A DNA stretch of 28,311 nt from Betaproteobacteria bacterium (GTDB lineage: Bacteria; Pseudomonadota; Gammaproteobacteria; Burkholderiales; SG8-41): the NCBI GenBank assembly GCA_025356695.1, contig JANXSE010000007.1:1-28311 (forward strand). The letters are read 5' to 3'. The first letter of the stretch is position 1. Each line of letters starts with the position of its first letter. This document shows positions 178-11,846 of this stretch, one piece after another. Below the pieces are notes generated by a model, which ran no database searches, had not been told where the DNA came from, and was given only the letters and a program-made list of their open reading frames with translations. The translations under genes were made by a program, and so were the position numbers.

Positions 178-432
178 GGGGCACCTGAATTCTGGAGTTA
201 CAGCCGGGGAACGCCGCACAATGCGGCGAATAATGCAGCGCGGTCAGTCGCGGTGAGGCGTACGCCATCGCCGTGTCGGCACTGCGCTGCGCGGCTGAAA
301 TGAGCGGGAGTCCATGTGTGCCAGTGTAGCGCAAAGGCCCTGTTTCAATCCAGAAGAGGCGCGTGCCGCCGCCGGCCGGCTGCGTTATATTCAGCAGGGG
401 CAAAAGACCCCTGTAACCGCGAGGAGACGAAC
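178..432. other. Divergent intergenic region between trpG and the selenoprotein operon
   Basis: This stretch must hold the promoters for trpG (leftward) and the selenoprotein/hydrolase pair (rightward). A TATATT hexamer at 386-391 is a possible rightward -10 without a good -35. Two perfect inverted repeats are visible: 212-228 (7-bp arms, CAA loop) and 395-413 (CAGGGG, 7-nt loop, CCCCTG). Neither is followed by a T-run. The short reading frames crossing it have no family resemblance and no ribosome binding sites, and I do not call them genes. Confidence 0.5.
395..413 (+). repeat. Inverted repeat in the leader of the selenoprotein gene
   Basis: CAGGGG at 395-400 and CCCCTG at 408-413 form a 6-bp GC-rich hairpin with loop CAAAAGA. 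It sits between the possible -10 (386-391) and the GAGGAG ribosome binding site (421-426), so it would lie at or near the 5' end of the mRNA. It could be a protein operator or an mRNA-stabilising structure; nothing in the sequence decides. Confidence 0.35.
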
Positions 433-1071
433 ATGACACAACGACTGCGAGGCATTTCCGACGCCGAAGCCACCGGCGCCGCCAAAGAGATTTTTGAATC
501 GTCCAACAAACTGCTCGGCCGTACCGCGAATCTGATGCGCATCCTCGCGCACAGTCCGCATCTGACGAAGTGGTATCTGGGTTTTGTCGCCGCAGTGCGC
601 CAGCCCGATGCCGGCGCCATCTCCGACGTGCGCCTGCGCAATCTGGCGGTGCTGAAAACCTCGACGCTCAACGGCTGCCGCTACTGAACGGAACACAACC
701 GGGTGCTTGGTCAAGCACTGGGACTTACCGACGCCGAATTCGATGCGTTGAAGGACGAGCATTACCGCGACAGCCCGCTGTTCAACGAACGCGAAAAAGC
801 CGCCATGTGGTGGTCGGAGGCGATGACGCTGAACACCGCCAAACGCGACGATAAGGTGTGGGCAGAGGTGCGGCGGCTTTTCAGCGACGCAGAAATCGTC
901 GAAATCTCCTACGCCTGCGGCATGTTCAACATGATCAACCGGCTCAACGATTCGTTCCGCACCGAACTCGAACCGGAGGAATACAACCGCCGCCAGCACG
1001 GTGCGGTGAAAGTAACGCGGGCCACGCTCGACGACTACGCCTGCACCTTTTGCGAGCGCAAAGAGAAATAA
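433..1071 (+). CDS. AhpD-like/carboxymuconolactone decarboxylase-family selenoprotein (Cys82-x-x-Sec85)
   Basis: Read through the in-frame TGA at 685-687, this is one 212-residue protein. The start is ATG 433 with GAGGAG six bases upstream. The family active site is C-x-x-C followed by His; here it reads N-G-C82-R-Y-(TGA)-T-E-H88, so the TGA replaces exactly the second Cys, the reactive peroxidatic residue in Mycobacterium AhpD. The frame then continues intact for 127 codons with normal family features (QALGLTDAEFDALK; ACGMFNMINRLNDSF). A SECIS-like hairpin follows at 699-721. I infer that TGA encodes selenocysteine and that the protein is a thiol/selenol oxidoreductase or peroxidase. No Glu occurs in the twelve residues before C82, unlike true AhpD. 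A second pair, C204-T-F-C207, ends the protein. It overlaps nothing and lies 4 bases before the hydrolase gene, so the two are probably cotranscribed. Alternative: a recent Cys-to-stop pseudogene or a sequencing error. The sel genes needed for decoding are not in the window. Confidence 0.8.
685..687 (+). other. In-frame TGA predicted to encode selenocysteine (Sec85)
   Basis: The codon before is TAC (Tyr84) and the one after ACG (Thr86). Reading phase is the same on both sides, since the frames of ATG 433 and of the 688-1071 segment coincide. It is the only interruption between 433 and 1069. It stands at the catalytic Cys of the CxxC motif, the position at which Sec-for-Cys replacement is chemically sensible. 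Confidence 0.8.
699..721 (+). promoter_or_regulatory. Candidate bacterial SECIS element (SelB-binding hairpin)
   Basis: GTGCTT at 703-708 pairs perfectly with AAGCAC at 713-718 around the tetraloop GGTC (709-712). Below it, G702-T719 and C700/C699 with G720/G721 can extend the stem with one bulged G. Twenty-one bases separate the TGA from the loop, within the 16-37 range described for bacterial SECIS elements, and a G occupies the first loop positions as that model demands. GGUC is also the apical sequence of the Escherichia coli fdhF SECIS. The hairpin lies inside the coding region, as bacterial SECIS elements do. Confidence 0.8.
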
Positions 1072-1075
1072 ACCG

Positions 1076-2809
1076 ATGACCGACGGCCCCGCCATGCAAA
1101 TCGACTGGGATGTTCCGATCACGATGGACGACGGCGTGGCGGTGCGCGCCGATATCTTCCGTCCGCCGGTCGCGGGCAAATTTCCGGTCATCCTCGCCTA
1201 CGGCCCGTATGCGAAAGGCCTCAACTTCGCCGAAGGCTATCCGGACGCCTGGAACATCATGGTGACGTCGCACCCGGAAGTCGCGGCGAATTCCTCGAAT
1301 AAATATCAGGCGTGGGAAGTCGCCGACCCCGAACGCTGGGTGCCCGACGGCTATATCTGCATCCGCATTGACGCGCGCGGCTGGGGCCGCTCGCCGGGCT
1401 ATATCGAGCCTTGGAGTCCCCGCGAAGCACGCGACATGCACACCTGCATCGAATGGGCGGGTACGCAGGCGTGGAGCAACGGCAAGGTCGGGCTGCTCGG
1501 CATTTCGTATTATGCGATCAACCAGTGGCACACCGCCGGCCTGCAGCCGCCGCATCTGGCCGCGATGATTCCGTGGGAAGGTTTCGCGGACTGTTACCGC
1601 GACCTCTGTTATCACGGCGGCATCGGCAGCGACATGAAGGATGTCTGGTACCGTCGAACCATCACGACCGTTCAGCACGGCCTCGGCAAACGCGCGCTGA
1701 CCAACCGCAACACCGGCGAAGCGGTGGCCGGGCCTGAAACATTGCCGGATGAAGCGCTGGCAAAAAACCGTTCGGACTTTCCGGCTGCTATTAACGCGCA
1801 TCCGCTCGACGATTCATTCCACCACGAACGCTCGGCGCACTGGGACAAGATCGTGGTGCCGTTTCTGTCGGCCGGCAACTGGGGTGGCTCATCGCTGCAT
1901 CTGCGCGGCAATGTCGAAGGCTTTGTGCGCGCGGCATCGACGCAGAAATGGCTGGAAATCCACGGCCGCGAGCACTGGACCGAGTTCTATACCAACTACG
2001 GCGTCAGCCTGCAAAAACGCTTCTTCGATTATTTCCTCAAGGGCCTCGACAACGGCTGGGACCGACAACCGCAGGTCATGCTACGCGTGCGCACGGTCGA
2101 CGACACGTTCATCGATCGGAACGAAAACGAATGGCCGATTGCGCGCACGCAGTGGACGCGCTTTTATCTCGACGTTGCGGACAGCGCGCTCTTGACAGCG
2201 CCGGCGTCACAAGGTGCAAGCGCCGGATTCAAAGCACTCGACAGTGAAGGCATCACGTTTTCAACATCGCCGCTGGACAAAGAAACCGAAATCACCGGCC
2301 CGGTCGCAGTCAAGCTGTTCGTCTCCTCCGACACCGCCGACGCCGACCTCTTTGTCGTGCTGCGCGTCTATCGCCCGGACGGCAGCGAGGTGGTGTTCAA
2401 GGGCGCGGTCGACCCGCATACACCGGTGGGGCACGGCTGGCTGCGCGCCTCGCACCGCAAGCTCGACAATAAACTGTCGACGGCATGGCGGCCCTGCCAT
2501 GCGCACGACGAAATCGAGCCGCTTACGCCGGGTGAAATTTACGAACTCGACATCGAAGTGTGGCCGACCAGCGTAATCGTGCCGGCGGGTTACCGCGTGG
2601 CGCTGACGGTGCGCGGCAGGGATTATGAATACGGCGGGGAAATTGCCGAACTGGGCTTCTTCAAGAACAGCAAGCTGAAGGGGGTGGGTATCTACACGCA
2701 CGCCAACCCGCTGCTACGGCCCGCTGCACTCTACGGCGGCAACACCACCGTGCACACGGGCGGCGTGCATGCCGCTTATGTGCTGCTACCGGTGATACCA
2801 CCGCAGTAA
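1076..2809 (+). CDS. CocE/NonD (X-Pro dipeptidyl-peptidase S15) family hydrolase
   Basis: A 577-residue protein with an N-terminal alpha/beta-hydrolase domain and a C-terminal PepX_C/jelly-roll domain (about 330-570). The nucleophile motif is G142-I-S144-Y-Y, matching G-x-S-Y of the CocE/PepX family; the candidate catalytic His is in HGREHW (H296/H300). The segment that carries the catalytic Asp in CocE (G-W-x-D) reads GNWGG (267-271) and lacks an Asp, so the acid may come from elsewhere. The family cleaves esters or amides such as cocaine, glutaryl-7-ACA or amino-acid esters; the substrate here cannot be told. No signal peptide, so probably cytoplasmic. It starts 4 bases after the selenoprotein gene (a second possible start is ATG 1094) and converges on trpE with a 7-base gap. 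Confidence 0.85.
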   Translation: MTDGPAMQIDWDVPITMDDGVAVRADIFRPPVAGKFPVILAYGPYAKGLNFAEGYPDAWNIMVTSHPEVAANSSNKYQAWEVADPERWVPDGYICIRIDARGWGRSPGYIEPWSPREARDMHTCIEWAGTQAWSNGKVGLLGISYYAINQWHTAGLQPPHLAAMIPWEGFADCYRDLCYHGGIGSDMKDVWYRRTITTVQHGLGKRALTNRNTGEAVAGPETLPDEALAKNRSDFPAAINAHPLDDSFHHERSAHWDKIVVPFLSAGNWGGSSLHLRGNVEGFVRAASTQKWLEIHGREHWTEFYTNYGVSLQKRFFDYFLKGLDNGWDRQPQVMLRVRTVDDTFIDRNENEWPIARTQWTRFYLDVADSALLTAPASQGASAGFKALDSEGITFSTSPLDKETEITGPVAVKLFVSSDTADADLFVVLRVYRPDGSEVVFKGAVDPHTPVGHGWLRASHRKLDNKLSTAWRPCHAHDEIEPLTPGEIYELDIEVWPTSVIVPAGYRVALTVRGRDYEYGGEIAELGFFKNSKLKGVGIYTHANPLLRPAALYGGNTTVHTGGVHAAYVLLPVIPPQ

Positions 2810-7593: not shown

Positions 7594-8889
7594 GTGCAAC
7601 ACGCCGCATTTATCATACTACGCTGCCTCGTCGCGCTCGGCGCCGTGCTCGCGCTCAGCGCCTGCGAATCGCTGCGCATCGGCGCGCCACCGGTGCCGGC
7701 CCCCGTGCCCGCACCGGCGCCCGCACAACCGCAACCCGCGCCCGAAGTACCGCTGGAGAAACCGCCGGTGCCGCCAGTCAAGCCGTCCGCGCCGCCGCCC
7801 AGCCCGCTTCGTCAGAGCAACTGGGACGCCATGACAGGGTGGCGCGACGACAACCTGCTGCAAGCCTGGCCGGCGGTTTTGACCGGCTGCGGTGCCCTGA
7901 AAGCGCAGGCCGCGTGGCAATCCGTCTGCGAACAGGCGGCCGCGCTGCCCGAACCATCGAAAGAAACCATCCGCCGTTTTTTTGAAACGCGCTTCACGCC
8001 GTGGCAGGTCATCAACGCCGACGGCAGCGACAGCGGCATGATCACCGGTTATTACGAGCCGCTGTTGCGCGGCAGCCGCAAACGCACGAACACCTATCGA
8101 TATCCGGTGTACGGCACGCCCGACGACCTGCTGGTGATCGATCTGTCGGAACTCTATCCCGACATGAAGAACTTGCGGCTGCGCGGGCGTGTCGACGGCC
8201 GGCGCGTGGTGCCCTACTACAACCGCGCGCAGATCGAGAGCGGCACCGCGCCGGTGACCAGCAAGGAAATCGTCTGGGTCGCCGACGCGATCGATCTGTT
8301 CTTCCTGCAGATCCAGGGCTCGGGCCGCGTGCGGCTCGACAACGGCGAGATGGTACGCCTCGGTTACGCCGATCAAAACGGGCATCCCTATCGCTCGATC
8401 GGCCGCCTGCTCGTTGATCGCGGCGATCTGCCGCTGGAACGCGCCTCCATGCAGGGCATCAAAAACTGGGCGCTGCAGAATCCGGACAAACTGCAGGACC
8501 TGCTCAACTACAACGCGAGTTACGTGTTCTTCCGCGAAATGCCCGCCGATCTGCCGGGCCCGCTCGGTGCGCTTGGCGTGCCGCTGACGGCACAGCGCAG
8601 CGTTGCCGTCGATCCGCGTTATGTGCCGCTGGGTGCGCCGCTTTTTCTCAGCACGACGATGCCGAATGCGCGCGTACCGCTCAACCGCCTGGTACTCGCG
8701 CAGGATACCGGCGGCGCGATTCGCGGTGCCGTGCGCGCGGATTTTTTCTGGGGTTTCGGCGACGAGGCCGGCGCACAGGCCGGACGCATGCGCCAAAACG
8801 GTCGCCTGTGGGTGCTGTTGCCGAACGACTATCCGCCGCCCGCCGCAACCAACGGCAATGGTAACGGCAACGGCGCGCGTACCGAATAA
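7594..8889 (+). CDS. mltA: Membrane-bound lytic murein transglycosylase A (lipoprotein)
   Basis: A 431-residue protein that cleaves peptidoglycan glycan strands with formation of 1,6-anhydromuramyl ends at the outer membrane. A lipoprotein signal ends in L-S-A-C24, followed by a proline/alanine-rich linker (about 31-70). The MltA domain follows (GYYEPLLRGSR, FFLQIQGSGRVRL, GYADQNGHPYRSIGRLL) and then the 3D domain with the conserved AQDTGGAIRGAVRADFFWG segment that carries the catalytic Asp. GTG 7594 is the only start that leaves a full signal peptide. The tail carries a short NGNGNGNG run. It converges on the TonB-domain gene with a 14-base gap. Confidence 0.94.
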   Translation: MQHAAFIILRCLVALGAVLALSACESLRIGAPPVPAPVPAPAPAQPQPAPEVPLEKPPVPPVKPSAPPPSPLRQSNWDAMTGWRDDNLLQAWPAVLTGCGALKAQAAWQSVCEQAAALPEPSKETIRRFFETRFTPWQVINADGSDSGMITGYYEPLLRGSRKRTNTYRYPVYGTPDDLLVIDLSELYPDMKNLRLRGRVDGRRVVPYYNRAQIESGTAPVTSKEIVWVADAIDLFFLQIQGSGRVRLDNGEMVRLGYADQNGHPYRSIGRLLVDRGDLPLERASMQGIKNWALQNPDKLQDLLNYNASYVFFREMPADLPGPLGALGVPLTAQRSVAVDPRYVPLGAPLFLSTTMPNARVPLNRLVLAQDTGGAIRGAVRADFFWGFGDEAGAQAGRMRQNGRLWVLLPNDYPPPAATNGNGNGNGARTE

Positions 8890-9651: not shown

Positions 9652-10380
9652 TCATTTCGTCGGTTTGGCCGACGCCAGCTTTTGTTCGATCTGGTCGGAA
9701 GAAATCGCACCTGGAATTCGGGTGCCATCAATAAAGACCAGGGTCGGGGTACCTGTAACCTTGTATTTGCCACCGAGCTCAACTGTTTTATCGACGGGGT
9801 TTTCGCAATTAGGGGAAGCGGAAGGCATCACGTCACGCTGTAAAGCATCGTCCCACGCTTTCGACCGATTTGAGGAACACCAGATTCGCTTGGCCTTTTC
9901 GCGAGCCTGGGGATGCAGCGAATCGATCGGATACAAAAACGTATAAATCGTCACGTTTTCGAGTTTGGCAAGATCACCTTCTACACGCTTGCAGTAAGGA
10001 CAGTCCGGATCCGAGAACACCGCCAGCTTGCGACTGCCGTTGCCCTTAACACGCTTGAATGCCAAATTAAGAGGTAATTGATCGAACCTGATCGCAGTAA
10101 GTTTGCTCATACGCTCTTCGGTAAGATTAATTTTCTTATCCGTGTCAACCATCTGCGCGTTGAGGAAGAGAAAAGACGCCTTCTCATCGGTGTAATGCAG
10201 CTGGCCGTCAGCATAGACCTCGTACATGCCGGCGAGCGGCGTTTTGGTCACACTTTCGATCTGAATCTGATTTGGATATTTTTTTTGCAGTGCCGCCTTG
10301 ACGCTGGCCTCGTCGGCATGGGCCGTCTGGCCGATCATTGCAATAAACGCCGCGGCGAAAATCAGTATTAGCTTACGCAT
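9652..10380 (-). CDS. dsbC: Periplasmic thiol:disulfide interchange protein DsbC
   Basis: A 242-residue protein with a cleavable signal peptide (cleavage likely after AHA, residue 22), an N-terminal dimerisation domain and a C-terminal thioredoxin fold. The active site is C127-P-Y-C130 (DPDCPYCKRVEGDL) and the cis-Pro loop is TGTPTLVF. A second Cys pair (WCSSN and SPNCENP) matches the structural disulfide of DsbC. It isomerises wrong disulfides in exported proteins and is kept reduced by DsbD, which is not in this window. The ribosome binding site AAGGA stands five bases before ATG. It lies 33 bases downstream of the ubiH-type gene, an arrangement often seen in betaproteobacteria. Confidence 0.94.
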   Translation of the reverse strand: MRKLILIFAAAFIAMIGQTAHADEASVKAALQKKYPNQIQIESVTKTPLAGMYEVYADGQLHYTDEKASFLFLNAQMVDTDKKINLTEERMSKLTAIRFDQLPLNLAFKRVKGNGSRKLAVFSDPDCPYCKRVEGDLAKLENVTIYTFLYPIDSLHPQAREKAKRIWCSSNRSKAWDDALQRDVMPSASPNCENPVDKTVELGGKYKVTGTPTLVFIDGTRIPGAISSDQIEQKLASAKPTK

Positions 10381-10413
10381 GGTTTTCCTTGGTGTTGGTT
10401 ATGTAATAAGAAA

Positions 10414-11580
10414 TTATCCGACAGCCTGTTGCACTAAATAGTTCTTCAATACAGTTCCACGGTTGGTCAGGCGCAGGCCAAGATTGCGCGCGCCGGCCAG
10501 CAGCGCCGAATCGTTGTTGAACAAGCGCTGCAGCGCATCAGTCGTCAACTGCATCGTTGCGATGTCTTCACGCCGCGCCCGTTCGTAACGCCGCAACAGA
10601 TAAAAATCACCGCAGTCGGTTTGCGCGCCGCGCCCGCGCAGCACCGCGGCCAGTTTGCGCGCGTCGCGAAAACCGAGATTCACGCCCTGCCCGGCCAGCG
10701 GGTGGACGTTGTGCGCGGCGTCGCCGACGAGCGCCAGCCGCGGCCTGATCATTTCACGCACGCTTTGCAAACGCAGCGGAAATGCCGCGGCAGGCGTTAT
10801 CACGCGCAGATCGCCGGGCTGCTGCGCGCAGGCGGTCGCGACCTGTGCCGCCAGTTCATCCGCTGGCAATTGCATCAGTTCCACGGCATGTTCTTCACGC
10901 GTCGACCACACCATCGAAACGCGTTTGCCCGGCAACGGCAACAGGGCCAGGATGCCGTCGCGGCGAAACCACTGGCGGGCGACGCCATGGTGCGGCATTG
11001 CAGTTTCGAAATTGGCGACCACCGCAGTCTGGCCGTACGGCCGCGCATCCGCCTGGATGCCAGCCTCGCCACGCACCCATGAATTGCCGCCGTCGGCGCC
11101 AACAATCAAGCGGGCGCGCAGGCTGCGGCCGTCCGTCAGCGTCAGCATTGCCGCACCGGCCTCAATGTTCAAACCGGCGCAAACGGCCGGCGCATGCACT
11201 GCGACATCCGGGCACTCCGCCAATGCGCGCCACAACGCAGCTTGCACCTGACGGTTCTCGACAATCACCGCCAATTCGCGCAGCCCGGCATCGTAGGCGC
11301 TGAAGTCGAGTTCGGAGCGTGCATCATCGCCGAAAATTCGCATGTCTTCGACCGGCATGGCGCGAGCGCCATCGACGTACTGCCAGGCGCCGCAGCTCTG
11401 CAAATATTCGATGCTGCCGGGACCCAGTGCATAAATGCGGCTGTCCCAGCCGTCTGCATCCGCGGTCGCCTGCGGTATCTGCGTTTCGACCAGCGCAATT
11501 TTGAGGCCGGCCCCGGCCAGGCTGAGCGCAAGGCTACCGCCAACCAGACCGCCGCCAACGATGATTACGTCAAAAAGCAT
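10414..11580 (-). CDS. UbiH/UbiF/VisC-family FAD-dependent ubiquinone biosynthesis hydroxylase
   Basis: A 388-residue flavoprotein monooxygenase. The Rossmann FAD motif is at the very N-terminus (G9-G-G-L-V-G14, ending at E32), the NAD(P)H/FAD DG motif is RLIVGADGGNSWVRGEAG, and the FAD ribose-binding motif is GDAAHNVHPLAGQGVNLGFRD. These match the hydroxylases that add oxygen to the ubiquinone ring. Which ring position it acts on (UbiH, UbiI, UbiF, UbiL or UbiM type) cannot be decided by eye. ATG 11580 begins the FAD fold; a longer frame from 11802 crosses the promoter of the tRNA gene. Followed by dsbC. Confidence 0.9.
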   Translation of the reverse strand: MLFDVIIVGGGLVGGSLALSLAGAGLKIALVETQIPQATADADGWDSRIYALGPGSIEYLQSCGAWQYVDGARAMPVEDMRIFGDDARSELDFSAYDAGLRELAVIVENRQVQAALWRALAECPDVAVHAPAVCAGLNIEAGAAMLTLTDGRSLRARLIVGADGGNSWVRGEAGIQADARPYGQTAVVANFETAMPHHGVARQWFRRDGILALLPLPGKRVSMVWSTREEHAVELMQLPADELAAQVATACAQQPGDLRVITPAAAFPLRLQSVREMIRPRLALVGDAAHNVHPLAGQGVNLGFRDARKLAAVLRGRGAQTDCGDFYLLRRYERARREDIATMQLTTDALQRLFNNDSALLAGARNLGLRLTNRGTVLKNYLVQQAVG

Positions 11581-11769: not shown

Positions 11770-11846
11770 GGTGATGTAGCTCAGTTGGTTAGAGCGTGGC
11801 ACTCATAACGCCAAGGTCGGTGGTTCAATTCCACCCATCACCACCA
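11770..11846 (+). tRNA. tRNA-Met (CAT), elongator type
   Basis: A 77-nt cloverleaf with encoded CCA. The acceptor arm is GGTGATG/CATCACC with discriminator A; the D arm is GCTC/GAGC with loop AGTTGGTTA; the anticodon loop is CTCATAA with anticodon CAT; the T arm is GGTGG/CCACC with loop TTCAATT. All stems pair except position 31-39 of the anticodon stem, which is A-C. The paired 1-72 (G-C) excludes the initiator tRNA. The D-loop and overall pattern match elongator tRNA-Met and not the CAT-anticodon tRNA-Ile2, although lysidine modification cannot be excluded by eye. Confidence 0.93.

Follow-up and report, generated by a model that had tools for sequence, protein, structure and literature searches.

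An in-frame TGA conserved at the second active-site cysteine position of an AhpD-like gene, very probably read as selenocysteine

An AhpD-like gene interrupted at its active site

The stretch of DNA analysed here (the window, 28,311 nt) carries an AhpD-like gene on its forward strand (433..1071) which is interrupted by a single in-frame TGA, and this raises the question whether the codon marks a broken gene, a change in the genetic code, the border between two proteins, or the insertion of selenocysteine (Sec). The frame begins with the ATG at 433, preceded by an AGGAG (422..426, forward strand) which on direct reading of the sequence is a likely ribosome binding site, and apart from the TGA at 685-687 it is open up to the TAA stop codon at 1069-1071. 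With UGA read as Sec, the product is 212 amino acids long and the TGA is codon 85, at the second Cys position of a C-x-x-C motif, giving N80-G-C82-R-Y-U85-T-E-H88 as the active-site reading, with the codons for Cys82 and His88 at 676..678 and 694..696, respectively. The initial annotation of this locus had described just such a gene, i.e. one TGA at the second Cys of CxxC in an intact frame with a ribosome binding site and with AhpD-like family features on both sides; the frame and its translation agree with this description, as does the conservation of C82 and H88 given below. A scan of the whole window for thiol-type motifs containing TGA gave 44 matches, TGA 685-687 among them.

When the read-through product was used for a protein search, 1381 homologues were obtained, and the best 120 of these (58-69% identical) all have Cys opposite the TGA in column 85, as well as Cys in column 82 and His in column 88. 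Among these best 120 of 1381, some bear the carboxymuconolactone decarboxylase (CMD) model PF02627, which the gene product itself did not reach in a Pfam search at E 0.001, where no family was assigned to it. Going by sequence scores, the product is related to four NCBIfam families while belonging to none of them by cut-off: the best match is the YciW-related (seleno)protein family NF053654 (68.5 bits vs a cut-off of 310, residues 4-176), which represents a different subfamily, followed by the peroxidase-related enzymes of TIGR01926 (59.4 vs 81.8 bits), TIGR04030 (29.9 vs 233 bits) and the AhpD_rel_CFYUT (seleno)proteins of NF041238, whose model is 357 positions long and is related around the active site (29.7 vs 175 bits, residues 75-183). 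An AlphaFold model of the product (pLDDT 79, pTM 0.77) was used for a Foldseek search, in which the first 36 rows were AhpD/CMD-like chains with 2gmy as the best (E 7.0e-6), and by sequence there were matches to 10 PDB entries including 2gmy, 2ijc, 7xw1, 6k40 and the debrominase Bmp8. The model thus predicts the all-helical AhpD-like (carboxymuconolactone-decarboxylase) fold, with C82, U85 and H88 corresponding to the C-x-x-C (or U) and nearby His of the AhpD/CMD proteins. Fold and active-site position are shared with the solved AhpD/peroxidase-related proteins 2gmy, 2ijc, 7xw1, 6k40, 3c1l and Bmp8, which carry Cys and are only 17-30% identical to the window protein (Foldseek rows with E 0.001 or better).

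Conservation of the TGA codon and selection on both sides of it

Relatives of the window were reached with a Rickettsiales genome as a mere starting point and then via the MiaB protein of the window, which is 72% identical to its matches in genomes G172 and G104. In the order of G172 an orthologue of the AhpD-like gene was found in 9 of 399 genomes (69-77% identity, with a single TGA in every copy), and in the bacterial family of G244, which is probably betaproteobacterial, 44 of 74 genomes contain a full-length match (68-96% identity), giving 45 matches with two of them in G635, and every one of these holds the TGA. The 45 orthologues used for counting are these family matches minus that of G596 and plus that of G339, which came from the order search and is outside the 74 genomes; all were read as DNA (68-96% identical to the window gene), and one of them is cut by a contig end (L117b). 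All 46/46 sequences, the window gene included, have TGA as codon 85 and none has TAA or TAG, while nearby codons of the same 46 sequences vary synonymously (TGC in 38 and TGT in 8 for C82, TAC in 35 and TAT in 11 for Y84). Searches outside the family returned no relative at 1e-40 among 369 genomes from the class and none at 1e-30 among 398 from the phylum, E-values so strict that an empty answer by itself shows nothing, and plasmid records gave AhpD relatives below 60% identity only. Matches of two other proteins among named plasmids are distant as well, at 47% identity to Neisseria and 41-42% to enterics and Aeromonas for GlyS, and at 67% to Aeromonas and 65% to E. coli for MiaB.

Outside the window, 47 orthologous genes were seen, and two of these are damaged: the copy in G596 (L109) has an additional TAG, located 44 codons after the TGA, and that in G597 (L119) has an internal deletion, with codon 85 still being TGA in both. 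Further disruptions in relatives had been named in the initial annotation as evidence against a selenoprotein; they are absent from 45 of these 47 genes and present in the G596 and G597 copies.

Purifying selection is similar upstream and downstream of the TGA, and the downstream part is selected as protein. In comparisons of the window gene with its nearest orthologues, dN/dS was 0.060 upstream and 0.028 downstream of the TGA for G635, 0.040 and 0.029 for G632, and 0.054 and 0.124 for G624, while pairwise pN/pS had a median of 0.260 upstream and 0.251 downstream (990 pairs, without L117b). A pseudogene or sequencing error, with the TGA having arisen by inactivating mutation or through misreading of TGC or TGT, would explain a lone stop in a frame that is otherwise intact, and damaged orthologous copies do exist in two other genomes. 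This reading is nevertheless contradicted by the TGA in 46/46 sequences and by the selection that persists behind it, and the invariant hairpin described below also argues against it; we have rejected it and assign it next to no probability. Because the TGA recurs at the same codon in the 45 orthologues and in the two damaged copies, sequencing error or chance decay can be excluded, and the TGC or TGT that resequencing might have revealed is contradicted by the relatives.

A second alternative follows from the open reading frames that are called mechanically in the window (316-687 and 703-1071), which could encode one protein each, the first being short and terminating at codon 84, the second starting inside the gene, for instance at the GTG at 703. 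The break coincides with the active-site Cys, the homologues form a single chain, and codon 85 is always TGA (TAA or TAG in 0/46 sequences), on which grounds the split-gene reading was rejected as highly improbable; the GTG at 703 moreover lies within the invariant hairpin.

A SECIS-like hairpin and selenocysteine machinery in relatives

Starting 14 bases behind the TGA there is a SECIS-like hairpin (702..719, forward strand) with a 7-bp stem (702-708 with 713-719) and a GGUC loop (709-712), which has the features of a bacterial SECIS element, i.e. a position just behind the UGA and a G in a small apical loop. In the E. coli fdhF SECIS, which contains a bulged U, the apical loop is likewise GGUC and lies about 20 bases behind the UGA; the window hairpin has the loop in common, whereas the bulged U is not evident. 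The codons 91-94 (703-714, GTG CTT GGT CAA), which cover stem and GGUC loop, are free of synonymous changes in 45 sequences (without L117b), and comparable fixation was seen in none of 104 other codons (those outside 86-99 with a residue conserved in at least 90%).

To assess covariation, 12 orthologous rows were aligned with 6 rows from a second AhpD-like gene that contains a TGA, all rows being our own selection out of a larger set. Stem bases pair in 96.8% of the alignment cells, and sliding one strand by 1-3 columns leaves no more than 48.4% paired. Changes on both sides were found in three of the seven stem pairs (matched by 8/500 shuffles), and the covariation score of the stem was reached in 0/500 shuffles, the number of further pair types in 86/500. 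The related TGA genes hence preserve the stem via paired changes, and conservation and covariation of this SECIS-like element support the selenoprotein originally proposed. In 13/15 TGA genes other than the typical orthologues there is a stem of 6 bp or more whose loop begins with G, a count made without a shuffled control; in L120 the longest stem is elsewhere, though GGTC is in register, and the deleted copy L119 has no such stem. In its fold energy the hairpin region does not stand out (z -1.64 and -1.08), the energy minimum is a different one in the orthologues L017 and L018, and an Rfam scan of 401-1100 gave no SECIS and three weak, unrelated matches.

The genes for Sec incorporation were surveyed in 12 genomes bearing an orthologue, i.e. 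the nine of the order search and the nearest ones, G635, G632 and G624. A tRNA-Sec was found in all 12 (72.9-77.7 bits in 9/9 genomes of the order search), and selB (8/9 in the order search) and selA were each over cut-off in 11/12, with G339 lacking a selA over cut-off and having its selB in pieces, one of which adjoins its tRNA-Sec near a contig end; in G635, G632 and G624 selA, selB and tRNA-Sec were all over the cut-offs. All 12 genomes contain selD, the best selD of each having one in-frame TGA, a sign that this lineage reads TGA as Sec. Among 11 other genomes checked, tRNA-Sec scored above 70 bits in G172, G084 and G198 only, with G222 marginally over the cut-off (48.3 bits). Of 17 family genomes without an orthologue, 14 have selB over cut-off and 13 have tRNA-Sec, so sel genes in this family do not predict the AhpD-like gene. 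The initial annotation had suggested looking for selA, selB, selC and selD in the same genome, and had named a genome without sel genes as refuting its proposal; the genomes of the relatives contradict such an absence, with the exception noted for selA and selB of G339. Within the window, the sole tRNA detected is a tRNA-Met (CAT) at 11770-11846 on the forward strand.

These results also bear on a reassignment of UGA, or its readthrough as Trp or Cys without Sec, since any residue at the TGA leaves the frame open. TGA is an ordinary stop codon for the other genes of the window, ending 14 of the 25 window genes (with gene limits set by us), and together with the SECIS-like hairpin and the sel genes of the relatives this led us to reject a change of the genetic code as very improbable.

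Because the TGA is conserved, selection acts on both sides of it, a hairpin follows it, relatives carry sel genes and TGA is otherwise a plain stop codon, the gene is very probably a working AhpD-like selenoprotein gene, and the functional selenoprotein claimed at the outset is supported. For such a gene, SelB would deliver Sec-tRNA-Sec to the UGA at 685-687, with the hairpin and its GGUC loop directing Sec insertion, and translation would yield a protein of 212 residues whose active site is C82-x-x-U85. If it works like AhpD, Cys82 and Sec85 together with His88 may reduce a hydroperoxide or similar electrophile; a disulfide reductase of the cell could then recharge the pair, a possible candidate being the thioredoxin-reductase-like flavoprotein whose gene adjoins selB in this family.

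Function, genomic context and selenium biology of the family

From the AhpD-like family and fold matches we infer thiol/selenol reduction of hydroperoxides or similar electrophiles, and a peroxidase-type activity of the product is reasonably probable. A selenoprotein with a different role, reductive dehalogenase-like or catabolic in another way, is suggested by the presence of the debrominase Bmp8 among the sequence and structure matches, and by genome G398, where a flavin reductase gene and an acyl-CoA-dehydrogenase-like gene are directly upstream of the AhpD-like gene; the same clusters of genes are found in G571. As Bmp8 is just 20-21% identical across the Foldseek alignment, the other matches are named peroxidase-related or AhpD, and the neighbours differ from genome to genome, we consider such a role unlikely, if well worth keeping in mind. 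In the window, a Peptidase_S15/PepX_C hydrolase gene (1076..2809, forward strand) is located 4 bases downstream and is possibly co-transcribed with the AhpD-like gene; both lie between a trpG fragment and trpE, and this trpG/trpE-hydrolase gene order recurs in only two of the 12 neighbourhoods compared (G635 and G632).

A thioredoxin-reductase-like gene is located directly behind selB in 13/13 sel loci of the family whose flank could be used (the contig of G339 is too short for this comparison), and is absent from the sel loci of two outgroups, G084 and G172. It is at L071:7929-8855 in G244, with matches in L070, L072-L077, L138-L140, L143 and L144, and its product scores 224.8 bits with TIGR01292 (cut-off 343.45). 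This flavoprotein is a possible reductant of the AhpD-like selenoproteins, and we propose it tentatively as the partner of the one encoded in the window.

Other TGA-bearing genes were noted in these genomes. Near the sel operon there are glutaredoxin-like genes of about 257 residues with a PGUSSC motif and a GTT-loop hairpin behind the TGA (L075:563-1336, L073:2203-2973 and L144:780-1550, all forward), and UGSC-type genes of 577-629 residues with IGAUGSC or IGAUGAC (L075:7986-9725 forward, L075:1451-3340 reverse and L139:1408-3141 reverse). The UGSC-type protein of L075:7986-9725 matches PF24696 (E 2.7e-25), and neither type reaches the cut-offs of the NCBIfam (seleno)protein models to which it is related. 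G635 has a cluster of AhpD-like genes on L107 (5150-6526 reverse, 10000-10665 forward, and the second orthologue at 7629-8246), which encodes a tandem double-domain protein whose first domain alone contains a TGA, with A-x-x-M replacing C-x-x-C in the other, as well as a 221-residue AhpD-like protein with a TGA. A further AhpD-like TGA group (HGCNYUMAHTAG) is present in other genomes of the order (L028, L031-L035, L037 and L038), with an 8-bp stem and a GGC loop in seven loci (L034 being outside this count as a duplicate).

Publications on AhpD-like selenoproteins with CxxU go back to 2005, and the window gene adds a member to a known kind: 27 sequences were reported in the 2005 Sargasso Sea survey (PMC1088965) and 299 selenoproteins of AhpD-like 1 in the 2008 GOS survey (PMC2398784), and the group is included in reviews of 2022 (PMC9312934) and 2026 (PMC13188914). 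As far as the surveys describe them, their AhpD-like selenoproteins (COG2128 / TIGR01926) resemble the window protein in having CxxU with Sec second and a hairpin behind the UGA with a G in the apical loop, and differ in that the window protein is below the TIGR01926 cut-off (59.4 < 81.8). A 2016 survey gives Deltaproteobacteria, Clostridia and Synergistetes as the selenoprotein-rich groups (PMC5029168). We found no paper on selenoproteins or selenocysteine in metagenome-assembled Burkholderiales in a search that had most subscription journals outside its scope.

The TGA makes a working enzyme appear broken, as the best 120 of 1381 protein matches are Cys forms, yet there are 45 Sec orthologues in the DNA. 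The lineage is also unusual, in that single genomes combine TGA-bearing AhpD-like paralogues with SelD, glutaredoxin-like and UGSC genes, as opposed to the picture in a 2006 survey, in which FdhA was reported as the sole selenoprotein of Sec-decoding Alphaproteobacteria, Betaproteobacteria and Pseudomonadales (PMC1794560). It is conceivable, albeit speculative, that this selenoprotein-rich family runs a Sec-based peroxide/electrophile relay, with several AhpD-like selenoproteins (the one described here having Sec in all copies seen) and a dedicated thioredoxin-reductase-like recharger, encoded between selB and the tRNA-Sec gene, beside flavin-dependent catabolic enzymes. The consistent use of Sec across the family, together with the thioredoxin-reductase-like neighbour of selB, makes a selenium-based redox pathway directly testable.
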